DNA from: Burkholderiales bacterium
Lineage (GTDB): Bacteria; Pseudomonadota; Gammaproteobacteria; Burkholderiales; Casimicrobiaceae
NCBI GenBank assembly: GCA_905339295.1
Contig: CAJPFI010000031.1
Coordinates: 1-64,000 of the forward strand
Direction of reading: 5' to 3'
Length of the DNA stretch: 64,000 nt
The notes under the pieces: generated by a model
Databases searched by the model: none
What the model saw: the letters and a program-made list of their open reading frames with translations, nothing else
Told to the model about the DNA's origin: nothing
In this document: piece after piece, positions 45,621 to 59,671 of the stretch
How the letters are laid out: every line of letters starts with the position of its first letter
How positions within the stretch are numbered: the first letter of the stretch is position 1
Made by a program: the position numbers and the translations under genes

Positions 45621-45656
45621 GACCTCCCCGGGCGCGGGACGCGCGCGCGATGATTG

Positions 45657-45662
45657 TAGAAT
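45657..45662 (+). promoter_or_regulatory. -10 element of the Crp/Fnr gene
   Basis: TAGAAT, in the AT-rich island GATTGTAGAATCC, is a good -10 that lies between ATG 45650 and ATG 45707 of the regulator frame. It supports the downstream ATG as the real start, with a ~40-nt leader. Confidence 0.45.
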
Positions 45663-45706
45663 CCCCCTCGACCCGCGCGTCGGCGAACGAGGCCGGCCGT
45701 CTCGCC

Positions 45707-46393
45707 ATGAACGACTCCGCCCCCTCGCTCGCCGATCGCATCGGCGCGGCCTTTCCCGCGCTCGCGCTCGCCGGCCGGCGCACGCTCGAGCGCATCGCGA
45801 GGGCGAGCGCCCTTCGACGCGTCGGCGCGGGCACGGAGCTGTTCGGCGAGCGCCAGCCCTGCTCCGGGTTCCCGCTGGTGCTGTCCGGCACGATCCGTGT
45901 CGCACAGCACTATCCGAACGGACGCGAGATGCAGCTCTACCGCGTCCGGCCCGGCGAGTCGTGCGTGCTGTCGTCGTCGTGCCTGCTCGGACGCACGCAG
46001 TACCCGGCCAGCGGCACCGCCGAGACCGACGTCGAGCTCGCCGTCGTGCCGCCGGGCGAGTTCCGCGCGCTGATCGTCGAGGAGGCCGCGTTCCGCGAGT
46101 ACGTGTTCTCGCTGTTCGGCGACCGGCTCGCGTCGCTCCTGTCGCTGGTCGAGGCGATCACCTACCAGAAGCTCGACCAGCGCCTCGCGGCGCTCCTCGC
46201 AAGCCGCGCCAGCGGCGACGCGACGATCGTCGCGACGCACCAGGCGCTCGCCGACGAGCTGGGAAGCGTGCGCGAAATCGTCACGCGCCTGTTGCGCGTG
46301 TTCGAGGACCGAGGCTGGGTCGAACTGGGGCGCGAGCGCATCCGCGTCGTCGACGCGAGGGCGCTGGCCGACCTGGCGCGGACCTCGCCGTAG
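45707..46393 (+). CDS. Crp/Fnr-family transcriptional regulator
   Basis: 228 residues. N-terminal cNMP-type effector domain (residues ~20-140: SALRRVGAGTELFGERQPCSGFPLVLSG; LYRVRPGESCVLSSSCLLG), dimerisation helix (FSLFGDRLASLLSLVEAITYQKLDQRLAALL) and a C-terminal winged HTH (ATHQALADELGSVREIVTRLLRVFEDRGWVEL). The FNR N-terminal cysteine cluster is absent; two clustered cysteines (RPGESCVLSSSCLLG) lie in the effector domain and could sense a thiol, sulfide or haem. The cNMP arginine/serine signature is degenerate. ATG 45707 fits the family length and the promoter. It may control the divergent CbiM-like gene and the SQR/RND operon. Confidence 0.9.
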   Translation: MNDSAPSLADRIGAAFPALALAGRRTLERIARASALRRVGAGTELFGERQPCSGFPLVLSGTIRVAQHYPNGREMQLYRVRPGESCVLSSSCLLGRTQYPASGTAETDVELAVVPPGEFRALIVEEAAFREYVFSLFGDRLASLLSLVEAITYQKLDQRLAALLASRASGDATIVATHQALADELGSVREIVTRLLRVFEDRGWVELGRERIRVVDARALADLARTSP

Positions 46394-46411: not shown

Positions 46412-46819
46412 CTACGGCGCCGGCCCGTCGGGAATCACCGCCGTGGCCTCGAGTTCGATCTTGCCCGGGTTGTCGAGCAGGTCGGACACGAAGATCATGC
46501 TCATCGCCGGGAAGTGCCTGCCCATCAGCGCGCGCCAGATGCGCCCGAGCTCCGGGCGCGCGGCGAGATAGGCGGGCTTGTCGCAGCAGAACGCGGTGAT
46601 CCTGCAGATGTGCTCGGCGCGCCCGCCGGCCTCGGCGAGCACGGCGAGCACGTTCGCGAGCGCCTGCTCGAACTGCGGGGCGATGTCCTCGGACGCGAAG
46701 CGCTGCCGGGCGTCCCAGCCGACCTGCCCGGCGACGAACACGATGCGCCCGGGCCGTGCGGCGATCCCGTTCGCGTAGCCGATCGGCGGCGCCCAGCCGG
46801 GCGGAAGCAGCACGTCCAT
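46412..46819 (-). CDS. RidA-family (YjgF/YER057c/UK114) protein
   Basis: 135 residues. RidA fold: IGYANGIAARPGRIVFVAGQVGWDARQRFASEDIAPQFEQAL at the start, IELEATAVIPDG at the end (conserved EATA/V). The family's imine/enamine deaminase arginine (R-x(2)-F type) region maps to CRITAFCCDKPAYL, where the usual VxxF has Cys residues; the conserved Arg may be R-I in ICRITAF. RidA enzymes hydrolyse 2-aminoacrylate; other branches act on unrelated enamines. Last gene of the korA-korB-ferritin-RidA unit, starting 8 bases after the ferritin gene's stop. Start ATG 46819. Confidence 0.88.
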   Translation of the reverse strand: MDVLLPPGWAPPIGYANGIAARPGRIVFVAGQVGWDARQRFASEDIAPQFEQALANVLAVLAEAGGRAEHICRITAFCCDKPAYLAARPELGRIWRALMGRHFPAMSMIFVSDLLDNPGKIELEATAVIPDGPAP

Positions 46820-46827
46820 CGGCACCC

Positions 46828-47625
46828 TCAGTCGGTGTAGCGCGGCGGATCGGGATCGTCGCGCCAGCCGTCGTCGGGCGGCGGCACCCTGGCCATCCAG
46901 TTCTTCACGAGCGCGACGTGCTCGCGTTCCTCGTCGGCCATCTCGGCGGCGGCACGCTTCACGGCCGGGACGCTCGCCGCGCGCTCGAGCGCCTCGAAGA
47001 AGCGCAGCGCCTGCTCCTCGCCCTTCAGCGCCAGCGCGAGCGCGTGGTACGGCTGCATCAGGTAGTGGACTTCCTCGTGCGCGACGGTCTCGGGGCCCTC
47101 GGCCCCGGCCCACGGCGCCGGTCCCGCCGGCGGCGGCGGCACCTTCGACCAGTCCATCTGCTTCATGATCCGGTCGGCGTGCTTGCTTTCGATGGCAGCC
47201 ATCCTGCGGAACAGGTCGGCGACGTCGCGATTGTTGTGCATCTCCATCGCGTCGGCCAGCTCGCGGTAGCGCTCGACCGCGTCGAGCTCGAGCCACAGCG
47301 CGTAGCCCATGAGCGCGGGAATCGAGGCGGGCGCTGCCGCGCGGGCGCGCGCGGGGCGGGCCGCAGGTTTCCTCGCCGACGGCTTGCCTGCCAACGGCTT
47401 CCCGGCCGCGGACCTGCGTGCCACGGGCTTCCTCGCGGCGGGCTTCTTCGCGGCGGGCTTCTTCGCGGCGGGCTTCCTCGCGGCGGGCTTCCTCGCGGCG
47501 GGCTTCCTCGCGGCGGGCTTCCTTGCGGCGGGCTTCCTCGCGGCGGGCTTCTTCGCGGCGGACTTGCGCGCCACGGACTTCTTCGCGGCGGACTTGCGTG
47601 CGACCTTTCTCCGCGCGGCGGTCAT
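46828..47625 (-). CDS. Ferritin-like (rubrerythrin-type) protein with histone-H1-like basic repeat tail
   Basis: 265 residues in two parts. Residues ~6-90 are about 16-17 pentapeptides of type K-(P/S)-A-A-(R/K), the AAKKP/AARKP pattern of histone-H1-like bacterial DNA-binding tails. Residues ~100-245 form a four-helix ferritin-like domain with carboxylate/His positions in LWLELDAVERYRELAD, RRMAAIESKHADRIM, VHYLMQPYHALALALKGEEQALRF and EMADEEREHVALV (ExxxEExxH). No signal peptide, so it is cytoplasmic and presumably nucleoid-associated. Its ATG overlaps the korB stop (ATGA), so it is co-translated with the ferredoxin oxidoreductase. Plausible role: iron/oxygen or H2O2 protection of DNA or of the FeS enzymes (inference). 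Confidence 0.85.
   Translation of the reverse strand: MTAARRKVARKSAAKKSVARKSAAKKPAARKPAARKPAARKPAARKPAARKPAAKKPAAKKPAARKPVARRSAAGKPLAGKPSARKPAARPARARAAAPASIPALMGYALWLELDAVERYRELADAMEMHNNRDVADLFRRMAAIESKHADRIMKQMDWSKVPPPPAGPAPWAGAEGPETVAHEEVHYLMQPYHALALALKGEEQALRFFEALERAASVPAVKRAAAEMADEEREHVALVKNWMARVPPPDDGWRDDPDPPRYTD
47420..47605. repeat. 15-bp coding repeats for the K-P-A-A-R tail
   Basis: About a dozen near-identical 15-bp units (GCGGCGGGCTTCCTC and close variants, plus-strand reading) in direct succession encode the lysine-rich pentapeptides of the ferritin-like protein. Unit differences are mostly C/T in the fourth codon position (TTC/CTC). Such arrays expand and contract by slippage, so tail length may vary between strains. 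Confidence 0.85.
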
Positions 47626-48479
47626 GGCGCGAACTCCGCTTCGAGGTCGGCGACCGCCACCGGGTGCGCCCGCCGGGCGAGCGGGTACGGCGTCCGGCCG
47701 CCCGCATAGAGCACGCCGATGTTGAAGCCGTCGTCGGTCATCACGCGCCTCGCGGCGCGCGCCGGGTCGTCGGTGACCGTGACGGAGGCCGGGTGGACGA
47801 GGTCCTTCCAGCTCCGCTGGTCGGGGCGGAAGGTCACGCACGGCGACAGGATCTCGACGAACGAGAAGCCGGGATGCCGGACCGCCTGCGCGATGATGTC
47901 CGCCGTGCCGTTCGGGTCGCCCGAGAACGCGCGTGCGACGAAGTTGGCGCCCGAAGCGAGCGCGATCACGAGCGGGTGGAACGCGCGCACCCCCGTGCCG
48001 CCCGGCGCGAGCTTCGAGTCCCAGTCGGGCTCGGTCGTCGGCGACGGCTGACCCTTGGTCATGCCGTAGACGTGGTTGTCCATCACGACGTAGGTCATGT
48101 CGACATTGCGCCTGCACGCATGCAGGAAATGGTTGCCGCCGATCGAGTAGCCGTCGCCGTCGCCGCCCGCGACCAGCACGGTCAGTTCGGGCCGCGCGAG
48201 CTTGACGCCGGTGGCCGCCGCGAGCGCGCGGCCGTGCACGCCGTGGAAGCCGTAGCAGGTCGTGTAGGCGGGAATGCGGGAGCTGCACCCGATGCCGGAG
48301 ACGACGACGGTCTCCTCGGGCTTCAGCGCGAGCATCGCGAACGCCTTGGTGATCGACGAGAGGACCGAGTAGTCGCCGCAGCCGGGGCACCAGATCGGCT
48401 TCGTGGCGGACTTGAAGGTCGCGGGCGTGCTCGCGGCCGGACGTTCGGTGACGGCAGTGGCGGTGGCGGTCGGGGTCAT
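47622..48479 (-). CDS. korB: 2-oxoglutarate:ferredoxin oxidoreductase subunit beta
   Basis: 285 residues. TPP- and 4Fe-4S-binding beta subunit: IWCPGCGDYSVLSSI near 30 (first cluster cysteines), VVSGIGCSSRIPAYT, the TPP signature GGDGDGYSIGGNHFLHACRRNVDMTYVVMDN and HVYGMTKGQPSPTTE. Cys residues in CPGCGD, GIGCSS and ILSPCVTF can form the cluster. With KorA it decarboxylates 2-oxoglutarate to succinyl-CoA and reduces ferredoxin, the electron source for benzoyl-CoA reductase in Thauera. The stop overlaps the ferritin-like gene's ATG; the korA stop lies 7 bases upstream. In Thauera this pair is oxygen-tolerant and adapted to ferredoxin reduction for dearomatisation. Confidence 0.93.
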   Translation of the reverse strand: MTPTATATAVTERPAASTPATFKSATKPIWCPGCGDYSVLSSITKAFAMLALKPEETVVVSGIGCSSRIPAYTTCYGFHGVHGRALAAATGVKLARPELTVLVAGGDGDGYSIGGNHFLHACRRNVDMTYVVMDNHVYGMTKGQPSPTTEPDWDSKLAPGGTGVRAFHPLVIALASGANFVARAFSGDPNGTADIIAQAVRHPGFSFVEILSPCVTFRPDQRSWKDLVHPASVTVTDDPARAARRVMTDDGFNIGVLYAGGRTPYPLARRAHPVAVADLEAEFAP

Positions 48480-48486
48480 CGGTCGC

Positions 48487-50271
48487 TCAGGCGGAAACGG
48501 CGGTGCGCGCTTGCGCGCCGGTCGCGCGGCCCGCCGCGGCGACGATGGCCTGGGCGAGCTCGGCGGGCTTCAACGGCAGGGGACCCGGGCGGTGGAAGCT
48601 CTCCGGGCGGCCCGGCAGGTCGAACCAGGCGCGGAGGTAGCGGTAGAACTGCGCGCCGTGGTTCTGCTCGACGACGAGCACCTGGCTCACGCCGGCGAGC
48701 GCCAGGTCGAGCTTCTCGGGCAGCGCCGGCGCGATCAGCCGCATCGCGACGAGCTTCGCGCGCACGCCGGACGCCGCCGCCCGCCCGATCGCCTCGCGCA
48801 CCGGGCCGGTCGCCGAGCCGAACGTGATCACCGCGAGCTCGCCGTCGCCCTCGACGTCGGCCCACATGTCGCCGTAGTCGTGCAGCGTGAGCTTGCGCGC
48901 GCGCTTGTCGAGCTGCATCAGGTGGTCGCGCGCGCCCGACGACGGCGTTCCCGCCTCGTTCTTCTCGAGCCCGTCCGCCGTGTACGCGGTGCCGGGATTG
49001 CCCGGGACCGCCATCGGCGAGACGCCGGACGGGGTGTCGCGGTAGCGCTTGTAGTCGGGCGCGTTCGGCTCGGCGACGACGCGTTTGCCGACGAACGCGA
49101 GGTCGGCCGGCCGGTCGACGATCGCGCGCGACTGGCCCATGAACTGGTCGGAGAGCACGATCGCGGGCGCCTGCAGCGCTTCCGCGAGATGCACCGCCCA
49201 CTGCGTGGTCGCGAGGCAGTCGGCGATCGACGTCGGCGCGACGACCAGCCGCGGCGCGTCGCCGTGCAGGCCGGACACCGCATACGAGAGGTCGCTCTGC
49301 TCGCTCTTGGCGGGTATGCCGGTCGACGGTCCGCCGCGCATCACGTCGACGACGACGAGCGGCACCTCGGCGCTCACCGCGAGTCCGATGCCCTCGGTCA
49401 TCAGCGCGAGCCCGGGTCCCGCGGTCGCCGTGAGCGACGGGACGCCCGCGAACGACGAGCCGACGATCATGTTGATCGACGCGAGCTCGTCCTCCGCCTG
49501 CAGCAGCGAGCCGCCGACCTTGGCGAGCGCGGGCGCCATCCACTCGAGCAGCTCGGTCGCCGGCGTGATCGGGTAGGCGGCGACGAAGCGCACGCCGCCG
49601 CGGATCGCCCCCAGCCCCGCCGCCTCGTTGCCCGAGATGAGCCAGCGCCCGCCGCCCGGCGCGAGCGACGGGAGCTTCGCCATGCCTTCGAAGCCGGCGG
49701 CCGCCTGCGCCCCCGCGTCGATCGCCGCGAGGTTGGCCGCGAGCGACGCCGCGTCGCGCTTCCAGGAGTCGCGCAGCGCCGCGACGATCGCCTCGCGCGG
49801 CAGGCCCGCGAGCGCGCCGGCGAGCCCGAGCGCGACCATGTTGGTCCAGCTGCCCGGAATGCCCTTGGCGATCTTCTTCAGCGGCACGGCCTCGTACCGG
49901 GCGCCGGTGGCGACGAACGCCGCCGGCGGCTCCCCCTCGGCCGCGTCGCCGACGATCAGGCTCGAGGGCCCGAGCGGGATCTCGTCCGCGAAGCGATGGA
50001 CGTTCTGCCAGTCGAACGCGAGCAGCAGGTGGAAGCGGTCGTCGAGCGACTCGACCGGCGCGCGCGCGATGCGCAGCAGCGCGGCCGCCTCGCCGCCGCG
50101 GATCTGCGGCCCGCTGGTGCGGACCATGAGCCCGTACGCGCCGGCCTTCGCCGCCGCCGAGAGGAACAGCGTGCCGGCCGTCATCACGCCCGAGCCGCCG
50201 CTGCCCGCCAGTGCGATCGACAGTCCGGCGCGGGCCGGGTCGTTCGCGTTCGCCGTCGTGTGTGCCATCAT
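48487..50271 (-). CDS. korA: 2-oxoglutarate:ferredoxin oxidoreductase subunit alpha (gamma-alpha fusion)
   Basis: 594 residues. Residues ~15-185 form the gamma domain (GLSIALAGSGGSGVMTAGTLFL), and from ~200 the alpha/transketolase-like domain with FVAAYPITPATELLEWMAP, VVVDVMRGGPSTGIPAKSEQSDL and, near the C-terminus, VLVVEQNHGAQFYRYLRAW. KorA binds 2-oxoglutarate and CoA and pairs with KorB. Start chosen at ATG 50271 (MMAHTTANAN); ATG 50268 and GTG 50295 are alternatives. The 187-bp divergent spacer to the bcr operon holds an FNR-type dyad 42 bp upstream of korA and a second regulatory element. So korAB and bcr are probably co-regulated, matching the electron flow 2-oxoglutarate to ferredoxin to benzoyl-CoA. 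Confidence 0.93.
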   Translation of the reverse strand: MMAHTTANANDPARAGLSIALAGSGGSGVMTAGTLFLSAAAKAGAYGLMVRTSGPQIRGGEAAALLRIARAPVESLDDRFHLLLAFDWQNVHRFADEIPLGPSSLIVGDAAEGEPPAAFVATGARYEAVPLKKIAKGIPGSWTNMVALGLAGALAGLPREAIVAALRDSWKRDAASLAANLAAIDAGAQAAAGFEGMAKLPSLAPGGGRWLISGNEAAGLGAIRGGVRFVAAYPITPATELLEWMAPALAKVGGSLLQAEDELASINMIVGSSFAGVPSLTATAGPGLALMTEGIGLAVSAEVPLVVVDVMRGGPSTGIPAKSEQSDLSYAVSGLHGDAPRLVVAPTSIADCLATTQWAVHLAEALQAPAIVLSDQFMGQSRAIVDRPADLAFVGKRVVAEPNAPDYKRYRDTPSGVSPMAVPGNPGTAYTADGLEKNEAGTPSSGARDHLMQLDKRARKLTLHDYGDMWADVEGDGELAVITFGSATGPVREAIGRAAASGVRAKLVAMRLIAPALPEKLDLALAGVSQVLVVEQNHGAQFYRYLRAWFDLPGRPESFHRPGPLPLKPAELAQAIVAAAGRATGAQARTAVSA

Positions 50272-50306
50272 GTCGCGAAGCTTCGCGCGCCTCACTCGAA
50301 CGCGAA

Positions 50307-50320
50307 TTGACGTGGATCAA
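50307..50320. promoter_or_regulatory. FNR-like dyad between korA and the bcr operon
   Basis: TTGACGTGGATCAA: half-sites TTGAC and ATCAA around a 4-bp spacer, one mismatch from the FNR consensus. It lies centrally between the divergent korA and had starts and could serve both. The corresponding element upstream of the hemerythrin gene is TTGACCGGCATCAA at 62437. Confidence 0.6.
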
Positions 50321-50458: not shown

Positions 50459-51526
50459 ATGCCGATCGCCGCCCACCGCTGGCTCATGACCGCGCCCGGC
50501 GCGCCGCTTCTGCGCGCCGAGTTCGACGCGACGCCGGGCGCGGGCGAGGTCGCCGTCGAGGTCGCCGGCTGCGGCGTGTGCCACACCGACCTCGGCTACT
50601 ACTACGACGGCGTGCGGACCAACGCCCCGCTCCCGCTCGCGCTCGGCCACGAGGTGTCGGGCCGGGTCGTGGCGGCCGGCGCCGGCGCCGACGGGTGGAT
50701 CGGCCGCGCGGTGATCGTCCCGGCCGTGCTGCCCTGCGGCGAATGCGACCTGTGCCGACGCGGGCTGGCGCCGATCTGCCGCCACCAGAAGATGCCCGGC
50801 AACGACATCCAGGGCGGCTTCGCGTCGCACATCGTCGTCCCGGCCCGCGGGCTGTGCAGCGTGGACGAGAAGCGCCTGGCGGCCGCCGGGCTCTCGCTCG
50901 CGCAGGTGTCGGTCGTCGCCGACGCGCTCACCACGCCCTACCAGGCGGTGCGGCGCGCGGGCGTGACCCCCGGAAGCCTCGCGATCGTCGTGGGCGCGGG
51001 CGGCGTCGGCGGCTATTGCGTGCAGGTCGCCGCCGCGGCCGGCGCGAAGGTCGTCGCGATCGACGTCGACCCCGCCAGGCTCGAGGCGATCTCGCGGCAC
51101 GGCGCGGCGCTCACGCTGAACGCGAAGGAACACGACGCGAAGTCCCTCAAGGCGGCCGTCGCCGGGTTCGCGAAGGCGCAGGGGCTCAGGGCCACCGAGT
51201 GGTTCGTCTTCGAGTGCTCCGGCACCGCGGCGGGCCAGCTGACCGCGTGGAGCCTGCTCGTGCACGGCGCGACGCTGTCGGTGGTCGGCTTCACGATGGA
51301 CAAGGTCGAAGTGCGGCTGTCAAACTTGATGGCGTTCGACGCCCGCGCGCTGGGCAACTGGGGCTGCCCGCCGGACGCCTACCCTGGCGCGCTCGACCTC
51401 GTGCTCGACGGCAAGGTCGCCCTCGCGCCCTTCGTCGAGACCCATCCGCTCGCCGACATCAACCGCGTGTTCGACGCCGTCCACCACCACGCCATCCGCG
51501 CCCGCGCGGTGCTGGTCCCGGCATGA
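50459..51526 (+). CDS. had: 6-hydroxycyclohex-1-ene-1-carbonyl-CoA dehydrogenase
   Basis: 355-residue zinc-dependent alcohol dehydrogenase. Catalytic Zn site: [14 protein letters not shown] and LALGHEVSG. Structural Zn site: [18 protein letters not shown] site: [19 protein letters not shown]. It oxidises 6-hydroxycyclohex-1-ene-1-carboxyl-CoA to the 6-oxo compound in the Thauera branch of the benzoyl-CoA pathway. Head of the plus-strand operon had-oah-dch-bcrCBAD-fdx; GAGGAT lies 6 bases before the [24 protein letters not shown]-type sequence near 285-300 is the Had-specific insert region rather than general ADH. Confidence 0.92.
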
Positions 51527-51539
51527 AGGAGACTCCCGC

Positions 51540-52652
51540 ATGATCGCCCCCCAGCCGATCCTCGCATTCAAGGATCACGATCTCGTCGCCGACTTCTCGC
51601 GGCCCGGCGTGCGCTTCGAGCGCAGGCCCGCGCGCACGCCCGACGGCAAGGTCGCCGACGGCCTGGTCAACGTCTGGATCACGCTCGACAACCCGTCCCA
51701 GTTCAATTCCTACACGACCGACATGGTCAAGGGCGTGATCCTCGCGTTCCGCGCGGCGTCCGACATGCGCGACGTGAACGCGGTCGTGTTCACCGGCGCG
51801 GGGGACCGGGCGTTCTGCACCGGCGGCAACACGAAGGAGTACGCCGAGTACTACGCGGGACAGCCGCAGGAATATCGGCAGTACATGCGGCTGTTCAACG
51901 ACATGGTGAGCGCGATCCTCGCCTGCGACAAGCCGGTGATCTGCCGCGTCAACGGCATGCGCATCGGCGGCGGGCAGGAGATCGGCATGGCCTGCGACTT
52001 CTCCGTCGCGCAGGACCTCGCGCGCTTCGGCCAGGCCGGCCCCAAGCACGGCTCCGCGCCGATCGGCGGCGCGACCGACTTCCTGCCGCTGATGGTCGGC
52101 GCCGAGCGCGCGATGGCCGCGTGCGTGCTGTGCGAGCCGTTCTCGGCGCACAAGGCCTACCAGATGGGGATCCTGACCGACATCGTGCCCGCGCTGCGCG
52201 TCGACGGCCACTACGTCGCCAACCCGCTGGTCGAGACCGAGCGCATGACCGACGCGTACGGCCGCTTCGTCTACGGCGAGCCGAAGACCGGCGACGCGGC
52301 GAAGGAAGGCAAGGCGCTCCTCCAGCGCGGTACCGTCGATCTCGCGCTGCTCGACGCGAAAGTCGAGGAGCTGTGCGCGAAGATGCTGCTCACGTTCCCC
52401 GACTGCACGACCAAGACGCTCGAGGAGCTGCGCAAACCCAAGCTCGCCGCGTGGAACGGCAACAAGGAGGACTCGCGCGCCTGGCTCGCACTCAACATGA
52501 TGACCGAGGCGCGCGCCGGCTTCCGCGCGTTCAACGAGGGCACGAAGGCGTCGCGCGAGGTGGACTTCGTCGCGCTGCGCCAGGCGCTCGCGCGCGGGCA
52601 GGCGTGGACCGAATCGTTCACCGACAGCCTGATGCCCGGCGCCCGCGGGTAG
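51540..52652 (+). CDS. oah: 6-oxocyclohex-1-ene-1-carbonyl-CoA hydrolase
   Basis: 370 residues of the crotonase superfamily, longer than ordinary enoyl-CoA hydratases, as is usual for Oah. DNPSQFNSYTTDMVKGVILAFRAASD, the oxyanion-hole segment DRAFCTGGNTKEYAEYY and MRIGGGQEIGMACDFSVAQD are the family hallmarks. The long C-terminal half (MTDAYGRFVYGEPKTGDAAKEG; NMMTEARAGFRAFNEGTK) is Oah-specific. It hydrates and cleaves the six-membered ring to give 3-hydroxypimelyl-CoA, the first linear product. AAGGAG precedes ATG 51540. 13 bases after had. Confidence 0.93.
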   Translation: MIAPQPILAFKDHDLVADFSRPGVRFERRPARTPDGKVADGLVNVWITLDNPSQFNSYTTDMVKGVILAFRAASDMRDVNAVVFTGAGDRAFCTGGNTKEYAEYYAGQPQEYRQYMRLFNDMVSAILACDKPVICRVNGMRIGGGQEIGMACDFSVAQDLARFGQAGPKHGSAPIGGATDFLPLMVGAERAMAACVLCEPFSAHKAYQMGILTDIVPALRVDGHYVANPLVETERMTDAYGRFVYGEPKTGDAAKEGKALLQRGTVDLALLDAKVEELCAKMLLTFPDCTTKTLEELRKPKLAAWNGNKEDSRAWLALNMMTEARAGFRAFNEGTKASREVDFVALRQALARGQAWTESFTDSLMPGARG

Positions 52653-52656
52653 TCCG

Positions 52657-53427
52657 ATGGCCGACACCCCCCTCCGGACCGGCGTCGAGCGCGACGGCGC
52701 GCTGCTGCGCCTGACGCTCGCGCGGCCGAAGGCGAACATCGTCGACGCGGCGATGATCGCGGCGCTGTCCGGCGCGCTCGCGCGGCACGCGGGCGATCGC
52801 GAAATCCGCGGCGTGCTGCTCGATGCCGACGGCCCGCACTTCAGCTTCGGCGCGAGCGTCGAGGAGCACCTGCCCGCGACCTGCGGCGCGATGCTCGCGA
52901 CGCTGCACGCGCTCGTCATCGCGATGCTGGATTTCCCCGCGCCGATCCTCGTCGCCGTCCGCGGCCAGTGCCTGGGCGGCGGCCTGGAGGTCGCGATGGC
53001 CGGCAGCCTGATCTTCGCCGCGCCCGACGCGCAGATGGGCCAGCCGGAAATGAAGCTGGGCGTGTTCGCGCCGGCCGCCTCGGTGCTGCTGCCCTACCGC
53101 GTCAACGCGGCCGTCGCGGAAGACCTGCTGCTGTCCGGCCGGTCGGTCGACGCCGCCGAAGCGCGCGAGATCGGGCTCGTCCACACGATCGCCGACGACC
53201 CGGCCGCGGCCGCGCTCGCCTGGTTCGACGCGCACCTCGCGCCGAAGAGCGCGGCGTCGGTGCGCCACGCGCTCGCCGCGGCGCGCCTCGGACGCCTCGG
53301 CGCGATCCGCGAGGGCCTCGCGGCCGTCGAGCGCCTCTACCTGCAGGGACTGATGAACACGCGCGACGCGAACGAGGGGCTTGCCGCCTTCCTCGCCCGC
53401 CGAGCGCCCGTCTGGGAGCACCACTGA
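52657..53427 (+). CDS. dch: Cyclohexa-1,5-diene-1-carbonyl-CoA hydratase
   Basis: 256 residues, crotonase fold: RLTLARPKANIVDAAMIAAL, oxyanion region DADGPHFSFGASVEEHLP, VAVRGQCLGGGLEVAMAGSLIFA and the Glu-containing QPEMKLGVFAPAAS. Dch adds water to the product of benzoyl-CoA reductase, giving 6-hydroxycyclohex-1-ene-1-carboxyl-CoA. The HFSFGASVEEHLP segment and C-terminal GLMNTRDANEGLAAFLARRAP are shared with Thauera/Azoarcus Dch. ATG 52657; its stop shares bases with the bcrC start (TGATG), coupling the pathway enzymes to the reductase. Confidence 0.92.
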   Translation: MADTPLRTGVERDGALLRLTLARPKANIVDAAMIAALSGALARHAGDREIRGVLLDADGPHFSFGASVEEHLPATCGAMLATLHALVIAMLDFPAPILVAVRGQCLGGGLEVAMAGSLIFAAPDAQMGQPEMKLGVFAPAASVLLPYRVNAAVAEDLLLSGRSVDAAEAREIGLVHTIADDPAAAALAWFDAHLAPKSAASVRHALAAARLGRLGAIREGLAAVERLYLQGLMNTRDANEGLAAFLARRAPVWEHH

Positions 53428-54611
53428 TGAGCGCCGCCACGCAACCCCGAGCCCTCGCGATCGTCGAGCGCTGCCAGTCGCTGTTCGAGGACCTCGACTT
53501 CAACGCCGTCAAGCAATGGAAGGCCGCGGTCCCGGGGCGCAAGGCGATCGGCTACATGCCGGTCTACGTCCCGCGCGAACTCGTGCACGCCGCGGGCATG
53601 CTCCCCGTCGGCATCCTCGGCGGCGGCGACGCGCTCGAGGTGATCCAGGGCGACGCCTACTACCAGAGCTACATCTGCCGCATCCCGCGCTCGACCATCG
53701 AGCTGGGGCTGACCGGGCGCCTCGACTGCCTCGACGGCATGCTGTTCCCGTCGATCTGCGACGTGATCCGCAACCTGTCCGGCATGTGGCAGATCCTGTT
53801 CAAGGACAAGTACGTCCGCTACTTCGACGTCCCGCAGAACTACGAGGACGCGATCGGCGGCCGGTTCTACGTGCAGGAGCTCGAGGTGCTGCGCGAGGAC
53901 CTGGGCAGGCTGCGCGGCAGGCCGGTCACCGACGACGAGCTCAACGCGTCGATCGCGGTCTACAACGAGAACCGCGCGGCGATCCGCGACCTGTACGCCT
54001 ACCGGGCCGCGGAGCCGTGGCAGGCGCCGACCTCCGAGGTCTACCTGCTGCTGCGCGCGGGCATGGTGCTGCCGCCCGAGGAGCACACGGCGCTGGTGCG
54101 CGAGTACCTCGCGGCGGCCCGCGAGTTCGGGCGGCCGAGGCGCGACAACGCGCGCATCGTGATCAACGGCGCATTCTGCGAGCAGCCGCCGCTCGGGCTC
54201 ATCAAGTCGATCGAGATGGCCGGCTGCTACATCGTCGACGACGACTTCATGCTGGTGACGCGCTGGCTCCTCGACGACCTCCCGACCGACCGCAACCCGC
54301 TCGACGAGCTGTCGAAGGCGTTCCTGCACCGGTCCGCGTCGACCGCCGCCAAGTACGACGCGAAGCGCGAGGACAAGGGGCAGTTCCTGCTCAGGCAGGT
54401 GAAAACCGGCGGCGCCGAGGGCGTCGTGTTCGCCGCGCCGTCGTTCTGCGACCCCGCACTGCTCGAGCGCCCGATGCTGCAGGACGTCCTCGCGAAGCAC
54501 GGCGTCCCCTACACCGCGTTCAAGTACGCCGAGAACACGGGACAGATGGCGCCGATCCGCGAGCAGGCCGGCACCTTCGCCGACTCGATCAAGCTGTGGA
54601 GCGCCGCGTAG
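53427..54611 (+). CDS. bcrC: Benzoyl-CoA reductase subunit C
   Basis: 394 residues, homologous to component D of 2-hydroxyglutaryl-CoA dehydratase. VPRELVHAAGMLPVGILGGGDALEVIQGDAYYQSYICR, LDGMLFPSICDVIRNLSG (cluster cysteine), VINGAFCEQPPLGLIKSIEMAGCYIVDDDFM and KYAENTGQMAPIREQAGTFADSIKLW (C-terminal hallmark). With BcrB it forms the benzoyl-CoA binding and reducing module holding a double-cubane-like or 4Fe-4S cluster. Four subunits reduce benzoyl-CoA to cyclohexa-1,5-diene-1-carbonyl-CoA with 2 ATP per 2 electrons. ATG shared with the dch stop; 49 bp before bcrB. Confidence 0.95.
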   Translation: MSAATQPRALAIVERCQSLFEDLDFNAVKQWKAAVPGRKAIGYMPVYVPRELVHAAGMLPVGILGGGDALEVIQGDAYYQSYICRIPRSTIELGLTGRLDCLDGMLFPSICDVIRNLSGMWQILFKDKYVRYFDVPQNYEDAIGGRFYVQELEVLREDLGRLRGRPVTDDELNASIAVYNENRAAIRDLYAYRAAEPWQAPTSEVYLLLRAGMVLPPEEHTALVREYLAAAREFGRPRRDNARIVINGAFCEQPPLGLIKSIEMAGCYIVDDDFMLVTRWLLDDLPTDRNPLDELSKAFLHRSASTAAKYDAKREDKGQFLLRQVKTGGAEGVVFAAPSFCDPALLERPMLQDVLAKHGVPYTAFKYAENTGQMAPIREQAGTFADSIKLWSAA

Positions 54612-54660
54612 CGGCGCCCGCCCCCCCGTCCGCCAGCCGCCCAGGAAACGAGGCAACCCG

Positions 54661-55977
54661 ATGACCGCCACCGCCGCGATGCCCGCCAGCGCGAAGAAGC
54701 CGCAGAACGTCCAGAAGGAGGACGCGATGTGGCTCCAGAAGGAGATGATCAACCGCAACTACATGGAGCTCGCGACCGCGCGCGCGCAGAACCGCAAGGT
54801 CTCCGCGACGTTCGTGCCGGGCAACCTGAACGAGCTCCTGATGTGCTTCGACTTCGCGCGGAGCCTGCCGGAGACCAACGCGCTGCAGAACGGCATGCGC
54901 AAGAAGTCCGGCAAGTTCATCATGGACGCCGAGCGCGACGGCCAGTCCGAGGACGTGTGCACCTACGTCAAGGCCGACCTCGGCATGATGCTGGGCGGCG
55001 AGATCGGCCCCACGGGCGACCCGCTGCCGACGCCCGACATCCTGCTGCTGTCGTACACCGGCTGCTTCACGTTCATGAAGTGGTTCGAGCTGATCCGGCA
55101 CAAGTACGGGTGCGAGACCGTGATGCTGCACGTGCCCTACCAGGGTGAGGGGAAGATCGCGCCGAACATGCGCGAGTACGTCGTCAAGCAGCTCAAGGAG
55201 ACGGTGATCCCGACGCTGGAGCGCGTGTCGGGCGTCAAGTTCGACATCGACCGGCTGCGCCAGTACATGAAGGAATCGGCGAAGGCCGAGGAGGACCTCG
55301 TCAGGGTGCTGCAGTCGGCGAAGAACCGGCCCTCGCCGATCGACGGCTACTTCGGCGCCGTCTACTACATCGGGCCGATCTTCACCGCCTTCCGCGGCAC
55401 GCCGGAGGCGACGCTCTACTACGACGTGCTGCGCCGCGAGATCGAGCAGCGCGTGCGCGACGGCAAGGGACCGGTGACGCCCGAAGGCGAGATGGGCGAG
55501 GAGAAGTACCGGCTGATCGTCGAGGGTCCGCCGAACTGGACCAGCTTCCGGGACTTCTGGAAGATGTTCTACGACGAGGGGGCGGTCGTCGTGTCGTCGA
55601 CCTACGCGAAGGTCGGCGGGCTCTACGACTTCGGCTTCCGCCACGATCCCGACCGGCCGCTCGAGTCGCTCGCCGAGTACTGCCTCGGCTGCTACACGAA
55701 TCTCAACCTGCCGTCGCGGATCGACATGATCTGCAAGTACATCGACGAGTACCAGGCGGACGGCCTGCTGATCAACTCGATCAAGAGCTGCAACAGCTTC
55801 TCGGCCGGACAGCTCCTGATCCTTCGCGAGGTCGAGAAGCGCACCGGGAAGCCGGCGGCGTTCATCGAGACCGACCTGGTCGACCCGCGCTACTTCTCGG
55901 CGGCGAACGTGAAGAACCGGCTCGAGAGCTACTTCCAGATGATCAAGCAGAAGCGCGTCTCGACCGCTGCGCACTGA
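54661..55977 (+). CDS. bcrB: Benzoyl-CoA reductase subunit B
   Basis: 438 residues, HgdA/HgdB-related. MWLQKEMINRNYMELATARAQNRKVSATFVPGNLNELLMCFDFARSLPETN-type N-terminus, then ILLLSYTGCFTFMKWFELIRHKYG, a Tyr/Pro-rich FGAVYYIGPIFTAFRG segment, and a C-terminal half with LAEYCLGCYTNLNLPSRIDM and INSIKSCNSFSAGQLLILREVEK carrying candidate cluster cysteines. This is the longest Bcr subunit and the partner of BcrC. ATG 54661 follows a purine-rich AAACGAGGC. The gap to bcrA contains an imperfectly explained hairpin element. Pathway and operon context make this assignment very safe. Confidence 0.95.
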   Translation: MTATAAMPASAKKPQNVQKEDAMWLQKEMINRNYMELATARAQNRKVSATFVPGNLNELLMCFDFARSLPETNALQNGMRKKSGKFIMDAERDGQSEDVCTYVKADLGMMLGGEIGPTGDPLPTPDILLLSYTGCFTFMKWFELIRHKYGCETVMLHVPYQGEGKIAPNMREYVVKQLKETVIPTLERVSGVKFDIDRLRQYMKESAKAEEDLVRVLQSAKNRPSPIDGYFGAVYYIGPIFTAFRGTPEATLYYDVLRREIEQRVRDGKGPVTPEGEMGEEKYRLIVEGPPNWTSFRDFWKMFYDEGAVVVSSTYAKVGGLYDFGFRHDPDRPLESLAEYCLGCYTNLNLPSRIDMICKYIDEYQADGLLINSIKSCNSFSAGQLLILREVEKRTGKPAAFIETDLVDPRYFSAANVKNRLESYFQMIKQKRVSTAAH

Positions 55978-56014
55978 GGCGGCATGACGGCACGGACCAC
56001 GCGCCCACCCCGGC

Positions 56015-56036
56015 CCTCTCCCGCGCGCGGGAGAGG
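56015..56036. repeat. Hairpin (REP-like) between bcrB and bcrA
   Basis: CCTCTCCCG-CGCG-CGGGAGAGG is a 9-bp perfect stem with a 4-base loop in the 82-bp gap between bcrB and bcrA. CTCTCCCGC-N-GCGGGAGAG palindromes are common dispersed elements in proteobacterial intergenic DNA. Located inside an operon it may act as an RNA processing or stability site that sets BcrA/D levels relative to BcrB/C. Confidence 0.55.
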
Positions 56037-56059
56037 CGGCCGAGACTGAAGAGGAACCC

Positions 56060-57397
56060 ATGCGCTGCTTCATCGGCATCGACCTCGGCTCGACGACGAC
56101 CAAGGCGGTCGTCATCGACGAGAACCAGAACGTCCTGGGCCGCGGGATCACGAACTCGCGGTCGAACTACGACACCGCCGCGGCGATCGCGAAGCAGGAG
56201 GCGCTGGTCAACGGGCGCTTCCACCTGTTCCGGCAGGCGCTCGGCTCGACCGGCGCGCTCGAGGGCGACCTCGACGTGTTCCTCGGCCAGCTCGAACGCG
56301 ACTTCCGGCTCGAGCAGTACCTCGAGCAGCTCGCGGACCTCGAGGCGACCTGCCAGCGCAACCTCGAGAACGCCAAGTTCGGCGACGCGACCCGCGACGT
56401 GAGCGTGGCGCTGACCGAGGTGTTCCGGCGGCTGTCGGGCGAGGCGGCCGCGCTGTTCGCGCCGGGCGCGAAGCGGAAGAGCGACTTCTTCCGCGACATC
56501 GCCGGCAGCCAGTACCTCGCGACCGGCGAGGCGGTCGCCAAGGAGTCCGGGATCCGGTACGACTTCCTTCTCAACGTGTTCGACCGCTCGATCATCGAGG
56601 TCGAGAACCGCGTCTACGGCGACTCGATCAGGCGGCACCTGATGAGCGCGCTCGAGCGCGCGTTCGTCGCGTTGCCGGGCATGGCCGGCCGGCGCGGCCG
56701 GGTCGAGGCGCCGATCAAGGGCATCCTCGACATGGAGATGGAGGAGACGTACGTCGTGGGCACCGGCTACGGCCGCGCGCGGCTGCCGTTCTCCAAGGAG
56801 CACATCCGCTCCGAGATCCTGTGCCACGGCCTGGGCGCGCACATGATGTACCCGGGAACCGCCACCGTCCTCGACATCGGCGGCCAGGACACCAAGGCGA
56901 TCCAGGTCGATCCGCACGGCATCGTCGAGAGCTTCCAGATGAACGACCGCTGCGCGGCGGGCTGCGGCCGCTACCTCGGCTACATCGCCGACGAGATGAA
57001 CATGGGGCTGCACGAGCTGGGGCCCATGGCGATGAAGTCGACCAAGACGATTCGCATCAACTCGACCTGCACGGTGTTCGCGGGCGCCGAGCTTCGCGAC
57101 CGCCTGTCGCTCGGCGACAAGCGCGAGGACATCATGGCGGGGCTGCACCGCGCGATCATCCTGCGCGCGATGTCGATCCTGGCCCGCTCCGGCGGCATCC
57201 GCAACGAGTTCACGTTCACCGGCGGCGTCGCGAAGAACGAGGCGGCGGTCAAGGCGCTGAGGTCCCTCGTGCAGGAGAACTACGGCGACCTGACGCTCAA
57301 CATCAACCCCGACTCGATCTACACCGGCGCCCTCGGCGGCGCGACGTTCGCCTGGCGCGCGGTGGTCGAGGAAGGCCGGACCGTCGAAGCGCGCTAG
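56060..57397 (+). CDS. bcrA: Benzoyl-CoA reductase subunit A (ATPase)
   Basis: 445 residues, ASKHA-fold ATPase that couples ATP hydrolysis to electron transfer. ATP motifs: [20 protein letters not shown] (phosphate 1), [15 protein letters not shown] (phosphate 2), [19 protein letters not shown] (adenosine). The bridging [4Fe-4S] cluster ligands are visible as Cys298/Cys302 in [10 protein letters not shown] and Cys337 in [11 protein letters not shown]. BcrA and BcrD share this cluster and pass electrons to BcrBC. ATG 56060; GAAGAGGAAC precedes it. About 150 residues longer than BcrD due to an N-terminal insert (~40-190), as in Thauera BcrA. Confidence 0.95.
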
Positions 57398-57431
57398 GGG
57401 CCCCGACCCCGGGAGCGAAGGAGACCTGCGA

Positions 57432-58277
57432 ATGACCCCCACCACCACGATCGGCATCGACATCGGCTCGGGCGCGGTCAAGTCCGTCCTGTTCCGCACG
57501 ACCGGCGGGAAGCCCGAGTGGCTCGCGAAGCGCTGCGAGCGCATCCGCCGCCGCGACCCGATGACGCTCGCGCAGGAAGGCCGCGACGGCGTGCTCGCCG
57601 ACGCCGGCCTCGCGCCCGGCGACATCGACTACGTCGCCACGACCGGCGAAGGCGAGAACGTGAAGTTCGCCACCGGCCACTTCTACTCGATGACGACGCA
57701 TGCGCGCGGCGGCGTGTTCCTGAACCCGGACGCGCGCGCCGTCGTCGACATCGGCGCGCTCAACGGCCGGGCGATCTACGTCGACGAGCGCGGGAAGGTC
57801 CTGTCGTACAAGATGACGAGCCAGTGCGCGTCGGGCTCGGGCCAGTTCCTCGAGAACATCGCGCGCTACCTCGGCGTCGCGGTCGAGGAGATCGGGCCGC
57901 TGTCGCAGAGCTCGACGAATCCCGAGAAGGTCAGCTCGATCTGCGCGGTGCTCGCCGAGACCGACGTCATCAACATGGTGTCGCGCGGGATCGCCACGAC
58001 GGACATCCTCAAGGGCATCCACCTGTCGATGGCGTCGCGCATCGTCAAGCTGCTGAAGGTCACGGGCGTCAAGGAAGGCACGGCGCTGCTGACCGGCGGC
58101 CTCGCGCTCGACACCGGACTGCTCGCGGCGATCCAGGAGGAGATGGTGAACGAGAAGGTGACCGTCACGGCGGTGAACCACCCGGACTCGATCTACGCGG
58201 GCGCGGTCGGCGCCGCGCTGTGGGGCGCGTTCCGGCACGCGAAGCTCCAGGAACTTCAGCAGAAGGCCGCCGCGTGA
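57432..58277 (+). CDS. bcrD: Benzoyl-CoA reductase subunit D (ATPase)
   Basis: 281 residues, ASKHA ATPase partner of BcrA. GIDIGSGAVKSVLFRTTGGKP (phosphate 1), ARAVVDIGALNGRAIYVD (phosphate 2), GTALLTGGLALDTGLLAAI (adenosine). Cluster ligands: Cys132 in TSQCASGSGQFLEN and Cys171 in SSICAVLAETDVINM. It has no BcrA-like insert. GGAG lies 9 bases before the ATG; 34 bp after bcrA. The IARYLGVAVEEIG segment is typical of the HgdC/BcrD/BadG family. Confidence 0.95.
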   Translation: MTPTTTIGIDIGSGAVKSVLFRTTGGKPEWLAKRCERIRRRDPMTLAQEGRDGVLADAGLAPGDIDYVATTGEGENVKFATGHFYSMTTHARGGVFLNPDARAVVDIGALNGRAIYVDERGKVLSYKMTSQCASGSGQFLENIARYLGVAVEEIGPLSQSSTNPEKVSSICAVLAETDVINMVSRGIATTDILKGIHLSMASRIVKLLKVTGVKEGTALLTGGLALDTGLLAAIQEEMVNEKVTVTAVNHPDSIYAGAVGAALWGAFRHAKLQELQQKAAA

Positions 58278-58598: not shown

Positions 58599-59237
58599 TC
58601 AGATCGCGTGGCCGAGCACCGCGAAGAAGTGGCAGGCGGTGCCCGCCACGACGAACAGGTGCCACACGAAATGGCCGTAGCGCATCCGCGAGTCGAGCGC
58701 GAAGAACGCCACGCCCGCCGTGTAGGCCAGTCCCCCGGCAGCGAGCAGCACGAGCCCGCCGGTCGCGACCCGCTCGACGAGCGGACCGAGCGCGAGCAGC
58801 ACCGACCAGCCCATCGCGAGGTAGAGGCCGGCGGAGGCCACCGGATGCGACATCCAGTCGAACGCCTTCAGCGTGACGCCGACGGCCGCGAGCGTCCAGA
58901 CGAGGCCGAACAGCGCCCAGCCCCAGGGTCCGCCCAGCACGCCCAGCGTGAAGGGCGTGTACGTGCCGGCGATCAGCAGGTAGATCGCGCCGTGGTCGAG
59001 CCTGCGCAGCAGGCGCTTCGCGCGCGGCTGCGGAACCGCGTGGTAGAGCATCGACGCGGCGTACACCAGCACCATCGTCGCGCCGAACACGCTGGCGGCC
59101 GCGACGTCCACCGCCGTGCCGCGGTACGCCGCGGTCAGGACCAGGATCGGCAGCGCCGCCACGGAGGCCACCAGCGCGGCGCCGTGGCTGACGCTGTTGG
59201 CGATCTCCTCGCCGCGGGTCTGCGTGCGCTCGCCCAT
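58599..59237 (-). CDS. Hemolysin III / PAQR-family membrane protein
   Basis: 212 residues, seven helices. The family motifs are clear: EEIANSVSHGAALVASVA (first helix His), MLYHAVPQPRAKRLLRRLDHGAIYLLIAGTYTPF and, near the C-terminus, HFVWHLFVVAGTACHFFAVLGH with the His pair that binds zinc in PAQR proteins. Distantly related to adiponectin receptors and YqfA. Function in bacteria is unclear (lipid or ceramide hydrolase-like activity suggested for the fold). Last of the minus-strand group; convergent with fdx. Confidence 0.9.
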   Translation of the reverse strand: MGERTQTRGEEIANSVSHGAALVASVAALPILVLTAAYRGTAVDVAAASVFGATMVLVYAASMLYHAVPQPRAKRLLRRLDHGAIYLLIAGTYTPFTLGVLGGPWGWALFGLVWTLAAVGVTLKAFDWMSHPVASAGLYLAMGWSVLLALGPLVERVATGGLVLLAAGGLAYTAGVAFFALDSRMRYGHFVWHLFVVAGTACHFFAVLGHAI

Positions 59238-59269
59238 GCCCCCGATGGTCGCGCTCCGGCGGCAGCGCG

Positions 59270-59671
59270 TCAGCGACGCAGGATGAAGCGCCACGCGAGC
59301 GCCGCGATCGCGAGCCAGACCGTGCTGCGGAGCGCCATCGCCGCCACGGTGCGCGCCTCGTACGCGCCGCCGGCGGCGACGAGGAGACCGAACAGCGCGA
59401 ACACGACGATCGTCGCACCCGCGATCCCGACCGCGATCCACGCGGCCCAGCGCCGGCGCGCCCACAGGCCGCTGCCCGACGCGACGTACGCGAAGCCCGC
59501 GAGGAAGTTGAACCACAGCACGAAGGCGACGTAATCGCCGGCGGCGCGGCGCGCCTCGCCGTCGCCGAACAGCACGGCGCCGCCCGCGCGGAGGGTCAGG
59601 AGCCCGAACGCGACCGCGACGACGGACCCGAGAAGCAGCGGCCACGCGCCACGGGTCTTCAGGTCGACCAT
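59270..59671 (-). CDS. Four-helix membrane protein, unknown
   Basis: 133 residues with four hydrophobic helices (about 11-30, 47-66, 75-95 and 108-128), short polar loops and the N-terminus MVDLKTRGAWPLLLGSVVAV. No metal or redox motif is seen. It lies 19 bp after the NnrS-like gene and 32 bp before hemolysin III, so probably part of the same transcript. Family not recognised. Confidence 0.75.
   Translation of the reverse strand: MVDLKTRGAWPLLLGSVVAVAFGLLTLRAGGAVLFGDGEARRAAGDYVAFVLWFNFLAGFAYVASGSGLWARRRWAAWIAVGIAGATIVVFALFGLLVAAGGAYEARTVAAMALRSTVWLAIAALAWRFILRR

Follow-up and report, generated by a model that had tools for sequence, protein, structure and literature searches.

The 2-oxoacid:acceptor oxidoreductases Por and Oor of Campylobacter jejuni are rapidly inactivated in air, and the hemerythrin HerA helps to protect both enzymes (PMC4257069). 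Ferriperoxin (Fpx) of Hydrogenobacter thermophilus, a rubrerythrin without a rubredoxin domain, acts as a peroxidase that draws on an NADPH/FNR donor, and aerobic growth depends on it (PMC3317640). In Thauera aromatica, it is KorAB that gives benzoyl-CoA reductase its reducing power (PMC9973337). Basic tails have been described on other bacterial proteins: the flexible N-terminal lysine tails of Dps bind DNA (PMC9103930, PMC7023142), as do the KPAA-repeat tails of AlgP and PhaF (PMC9239181, PMC3574117), and AlgP also spaces polyphosphate granules (PMC9239181).

Here we analyzed fer, a gene of a Burkholderiales bacterium (Casimicrobiaceae) located in a 64,000-nucleotide stretch of contig CAJPFI010000031.1, the whole of which is referred to as the window. 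HerA resembles fer as proposed below in being a di-iron protector of 2-oxoacid:acceptor oxidoreductases, but it belongs to the hemerythrin family and the abstract of PMC4257069 does not mention genetic linkage to oor. Ferriperoxin, likened to fer by its description only, is also of the rubrerythrin type without a rubredoxin domain and offers a plausible model for the chemistry, whereas the relevant parts of PMC3317640 mention neither a basic tail nor linkage to korAB. Dps shares with fer membership of the ferritin superfamily and a basic N-terminal tail, which Dps uses to bind DNA; its tail usually carries 3-7 lysines and reaches 52 residues in D. grandis, compared with 99 residues and 36 K/R in fer, which scores as Rubrerythrin, falls under the PF00210 cut-off and is linked to korAB. 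AlgP and PhaF likewise carry a basic tail of 4-5-residue repeats (KPAA in AlgP, with variable copy number) on a helical domain, but that tail is C-terminal rather than N-terminal and the carrier domain is a different one.

The original prediction regarded a DNA-binding tail on a di-iron protein within the operon for low-potential ferredoxin electrons as undescribed. In view of Dps, a DNA-binding basic tail on a protein of the ferritin superfamily is not new in kind, but the combination of tail, domain and korAB linkage is unreported in the open-licence literature searched. As the search covered open-licence PMC articles only, this absence of any report on fer or on the combination is weak evidence. 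Nothing was found there that brings together korAB, rubrerythrin and benzoyl-CoA. The passages found in PMC2996986 treat benzoyl-CoA reductase and rubrerythrin in separate contexts, those in PMC11304471 do the same for korAB and ferritin, and those in PMC9674854 concern histone H1-like protein and rubrerythrin as separate genes.

The fer gene and its operon

The features of the window that concern fer are as follows.

46412..46819, minus strand: RidA-like (Rid family) gene (PF01042, 4.3e-17)
46828..47328, minus strand: rubrerythrin/ferritin-type four-helix domain of fer, residues 100-265 and stop codon (Pfam Rubrerythrin, AlphaFold2, 2oh3)
47329..47625, minus strand: basic histone-H1-like tail of fer, residues 1-99, predicted to be disordered (HC2, composition, AlphaFold2)
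47424-47595, minus strand: 15-bp tandem repeat, 11.5 copies, mostly K-P-A-A-R/K codons (Tandem Repeats Finder, 89% matches)
47622..48479, minus strand: korB, 2-oxoacid:ferredoxin oxidoreductase beta subunit (TIGR02177, 268.3 bits, cut-off 261.9)
48487..50295, minus strand: korA, 2-oxoacid:acceptor oxidoreductase alpha subunit with POR (gamma-type) and POR_N domains (TIGR03710, 528.3, cut-off 482.75; PF01558, PF01855)
50459..58277, plus strand, divergent: had, oah, bcrC, bcrB, bcrA and bcrD of the benzoyl-CoA pathway (NCBIfam models)

On the minus strand, korA, korB, fer and the Rid-family gene follow one another in a single run. The had-to-bcrD set scored above cut-off throughout (TIGR03201, TIGR03200, TIGR02263, TIGR02260, TIGR02259 and TIGR02261). 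As had been predicted, fer lies in an operon with korAB and ridA; this operon adjoins a bcr-type benzoyl-CoA cluster. The true start of korA may be internal to the called ORF, and TIGR00004 scored below its cut-off on the RidA-like gene. The fer ORF occupies 46828-47625 and encodes 265 amino acids. Its coordinates had been given correctly in the original prediction, the strand being minus, and the predicted junctions on both sides were also recovered: the fer ATG overlaps the korB stop by four bases (47622-47625), and 8 bp separate the fer stop (ending at 46828) from the ridA start (46819).

Other readings of this region were considered. A plus-strand reading of 46828-47625 was rejected, as was a longer ORF starting from GTG 48390, since the korB-overlapping start is kept in 75 of 80 relatives (ATGA in 61, GTGA in 14). 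The tail is unlikely to be an untranslated leader: the start position is identical in tailed and tail-less relatives, and in the window gene the first in-frame ATG after the overlapping start does not come before residue 106, although GTG and TTG codons are present in that interval.

A palindrome, TTGA-N6-TCAA, is found at 50307..50320 between the divergent korA and had; the pattern has three matches in the 64 kb and the site is put forward only as a candidate FNR-box-like element. A gene for a CRP/FNR-type regulator (45650-46393, plus strand) is convergent with the operon, and such a regulator was seen close by in just 2 of the 80 relatives.

A ferritin-like domain with a predicted di-iron site

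Pfam Rubrerythrin (PF02915) matched residues 100-265 at 70.9 bits (cut-off 22.8; 1.8e-19), in agreement with the predicted rubrerythrin/ferritin-type domain joined to the tail. AlphaFold2 placed helices from residue 102 of the full protein onward, and the domain modelled alone formed four helices with a mean pLDDT of 82.4. Scores fell below cut-off for classical rubrerythrin (NF045767, 16.4 versus 200 bits), for Ferritin/Dps (PF00210, 16.5 versus 24.5 with the whole protein) and for the encapsulin-cargo ferritin models (NF058679, 36.5 versus 90; TIGR04535, 28.9 versus 125). The C-terminal rubredoxin domain that characterizes classical rubrerythrins was not detected, and cysteine is absent from all 265 residues.

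Six residues, numbered within the domain as E14, E47, H50, E104, E134 and H137, do not vary in any of 81 sequences, comprising the window gene and 80 relatives. They are predicted to be the di-metal ligands from the E/ExxH/E/ExxH pattern of ferritin-like di-iron proteins. The original prediction had allowed for helices lacking metal ligands; the predicted ligands were instead retained throughout. An H88-Y-L-M-x-P motif (residues 88-97) and W155, D158, D160 and P161 are also invariant.

The best solved match of the domain in both sequence and fold was 2OH3, a COG1633 protein from Magnetospirillum magnetotacticum MS-1 described as uncharacterized, which aligns with nearly the whole domain at 3.4e-29 by sequence and ranks first in Foldseek with 33% identity. 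It differs from fer in that its solved chain could not accommodate a long tail (residue 6 of the query is matched to residue 9 of the chain) and in carrying Ser at the helix-B Glu position. The same replacement is found in the korAB-linked L142 (1498-1989), while L141 retains Glu; judged from these sequences, relatives outside the order do not always have all six ligand residues. The main text of the Magnetospirillum literature examined mentions neither ferritin nor rubrerythrin. Ranks 2-10 of the Foldseek search were bacterioferritins, with E values under 0.001 for ranks 1 and 2 only. Peroxidase, ferroxidase and iron storage functions are indistinguishable at the level of sequence.

Linkage of fer to korAB among relatives

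We compared the best 80 of 142 matching loci, nearly all titled as metagenome-assembled genomes of beta- or other proteobacteria; these named loci overlap with an unnamed survey (L026 and L004, for instance, represent a single contig). korB lies directly upstream of fer in 79 of them, the exception being cut by the contig end 134 bp upstream, and the loci without korB (one) or korA (four) have merely 134-689 bp of upstream sequence. Downstream, ridA follows within 131 bp in 52 of the 80. At least one of had, oah, bcrC and bcrB, at 60% identity or more, was present in the flanks of 63 loci; oah was detected in 61 at E 1e-15 and in 59 at 60% identity or more. In the remaining 17, none of the had, oah and bcr genes was seen in the flanking sequence; a full 5 kb upstream is available for three (L098, L099 and L102) and less for the others. 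A search for plasmid relatives gave no match.

Genomes were also surveyed at three taxonomic levels. Within the family, 19 of 64 genomes matched the domain at E 1e-3, and korB linkage was found in the window and 15 others (L018/L022 counted once). For the order, 399 genomes were sampled, of which 32 matched at 1e-20 and 13 had BcrC over cut-off; all 13 of the latter have a korAB-linked gene (Fisher p 1e-22, with G085 and G392, both weak matches, entered as unlinked because the neighbourhood of the best hit was inspected for the other 30 of the 32). Linkage of that hit to korAB was seen in 15 of the 30 genomes, each with an E value of 2e-48 or better. The other 15, with best hits of 1e-39 or weaker, served as a negative control: neither korA nor korB lay within 1.5 kb of them, although contig ends cut three of these loci short. 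In G327, BcrC is partial and scores below cut-off, and the fer matches are fragmented, the best of them not being korAB-linked. In a phylum-wide sample of 398 genomes, the own genome and two others matched at 1e-35, and both others are korAB-linked without a long tail.

G192 and G282 in the order sample are korAB-linked and gave no BcrC or BzdN match, and in the phylum-wide pair G635 has BcrC while G608 has neither protein. As three korAB-fer operons in all (L139, L140 and L142) come from genomes without detected BcrC or BzdN, it is apparently KorAB, and not dearomatisation itself, that is the steady partner of fer. Some genomes with the korAB-linked copy also carry an additional, weaker relative of the domain, at E 1e-37 to 1e-42 (G073:C106, G409:C58, G383:C58 and G410:C20).

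A labile basic tail

The tail of the window gene contains 36 K/R, 36 A, 14 P and no D/E in residues 1-99. The run of about 85 residues of pentapeptides in the original prediction is a real repeat, but its strict part is shorter, the 15-bp array coding for approximately residues 11-67, and the basic region as a whole spans residues 1-99. AlphaFold2 gave block mean pLDDT values of 45-58 over residues 1-100 and no helix before 102. The description of the tail as H1-like is borne out by Pfam HC2 (PF07382, histone H1-like), which matched residues 1-99 at 62.1 bits against a cut-off of 40 and found no other match in the own genome. This match is likely driven by composition; Extensin_1 also matched the tail, below its own cut-off, and the whole protein stayed below the NCBIfam H1-like models (NF038052, 37.6 versus 135; NF038053, 35.6 versus 80).

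The charge of the tail is higher than expected by chance: among 13,624 segments of 99 residues from 46 ORFs of the window, which were picked mechanically and did not include fer, 6 reached its net charge of +36, and all six fall in the ORF at 58599-59645. This minus-strand ORF is of the HlyIII family and has an arginine-rich mechanical N-terminus. The stretch is probably not real protein, because it precedes the likely true start of the HlyIII gene at residue 137.

For the comparison of relatives we defined a tail as an extension of at least 25 amino acids with a net charge of at least +5. By this criterion 25 of the 80 named relatives are tailed, the longest tail having 102 residues (L026), and 55 are not, including L043, which was counted as tail-less although its contig starts 134 bp upstream; shorter basic N-termini occur in L087, L057, L075 and several more. 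The original prediction had allowed that homologues might lack the tail in all other genomes, which is not the case, and had centred on the tail as such. The tail does recur, but it does not define the family, in which it is the linkage to korAB that is conserved.

On a quick gene tree of 82 rows (the 80 named relatives, the window and L005; 28 of 79 inner branches open), the tail label requires at least 9 changes, or 3 with starred branches only, compared with a mean of 22 for shuffled labels. In alignment A2, the start of the L034 row is one codon too early, and that of the L099 row falls inside its tail. The small clade of the window, which is not starred, contains the tailed window gene and L026 together with the tail-less L027, L005 and L092. 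Because of these tail-less members, and because the repeat units differ (K-P-A-A-R in the window, A-P-K-A-K-T-A in its nearest relative L026), the sequences suggest that the two tails are separate expansions, the alternative being shared ancestry with later turnover. In several clades the basic tails are, by eye, not perfect repeats.

Composition was further examined in 25 N-terminal extensions of at least 26 amino acids that were chosen regardless of charge, a set that differs slightly from the 25 tailed relatives. Net charge was positive in 24 of them, with 31% K+R and 1.4% D+E. The korB N-extensions of the same loci contained 11% K+R and 8% D+E (scored in 74 of 80 loci, with some of the extensions probably called too long). 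Across seven partly overlapping pairs of related tails there were 17 K/R swaps and 19 basic/non-basic changes, and D or E was involved in 2 of 81 substitutions. As K/R swaps occur and D/E are rare, while single changes from lysine codons reach Arg and Glu equally often, this small sample points to selection for positive charge rather than for sequence. From these comparisons the tail appears as a labile, charge-conserved and recurrent lineage-specific addition. Its presence was not associated with that of ridA, which is absent from 10 of the 23 loci with a tail and from 17 of the 54 without one (p 0.43; three of the 80 loci were dropped for having <600 bp downstream).

Possible roles of the domain and the tail

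We propose, with a probability of roughly 0.5, that fer encodes a rubrerythrin-like protector of KorAB without a rubredoxin domain, whose tail serves as a tether to a polyanion, most likely DNA. A KorAB-dedicated protector is favoured because of the precedents of HerA, ferriperoxin and the KorAB of T. aromatica. The domain would bind two irons, and the di-iron centre would remove peroxide, or else O2 or free iron, in the vicinity of KorAB, possibly with electrons from the same ferredoxin system. Protection would be called for when cells using the benzoyl-CoA pathway meet oxygen, the FeS chemistry of KorAB being expected to be oxygen-labile, and damage control would also be a fitting task for the Rid protein encoded in the operon. 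The fast-evolving tail would grow and shrink by tandem duplication under selection for positive charge and not for sequence, and in tailed lineages the protein might also work like Dps at the nucleoid.

One alternative keeps the service to KorAB and departs from the proposed reading in the tail, which would be a nearly neutral by-product of slippage in GC-rich repeats that happen to code for K, A and P and are tolerated at a flexible N-terminus. The tandem-repeat core, the differences between near relatives in both presence and repeat unit, and the absence of the tail from most relatives all agree with this. We nevertheless think it unlikely, given that the basic tails of several clades are not perfect repeats by eye, that related tails swap K for R and nearly lack D/E (in a small sample), and that the korB extensions are less basic. 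It is similarly doubtful that the tail binds a protein or polyphosphate instead of DNA, be it the ferredoxin, the ferritin domain of a neighbouring subunit or polyphosphate granules. That domain is indeed acidic (net -11, pI 5.0), and AlgP, with its KPAA repeats, associates with polyphosphate granules (PMC9239181). On the other hand, domains of tailed proteins are on average less acidic than those of tail-less ones (-11.8, n=25, versus -15.2, n=55), and KorA and KorB are near neutral (net charge -5 and +1), which leaves the idea of the tail as a partner of an acidic KorAB unsupported.

The domain itself might store or deliver iron and thereby buffer the supply to the FeS clusters in KorAB, in ferredoxin and in benzoyl-CoA reductase, peroxide playing no part. 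The bacterioferritins below 2oh3 in the Foldseek ranking lean this way, whereas Pfam groups the domain with rubrerythrins and PF00210 stays below cut-off, and we regard iron buffering as improbable beside the protector with a tether. Since 55 of 80 relatives have no tail by our criterion, DNA tethering cannot be the core job of the family.

A wider interpretation, which we offer more tentatively than the reading for fer itself, is that an as yet unnamed KorAB-dedicated di-iron family guards the low-potential electron supply, and that several lineages have independently made a Dps-like nucleoid protein of it by repeat expansion. If so, one polypeptide would protect both an FeS enzyme and DNA, as a convergent DNA-tethered ferritin-like protein outside Dps. 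It is a practical question by what means facultative degraders of aromatic compounds preserve their oxygen-labile 2-oxoacid:ferredoxin oxidoreductases. Locked to korAB in every BcrC-bearing genome of the order sample, fer is a strong candidate for a dedicated protector, and one that is open to deletion. The tailed and tail-less natural orthologues provide a ready experiment on H1-like bacterial tails with a defined carrier.

The own genome already has a Dps-like gene, so that the tail would not be its only route to iron chemistry at DNA. This gene (L143, 1402-1917) is the only PF00210 match in the genome and has a short basic N-terminus of its own.
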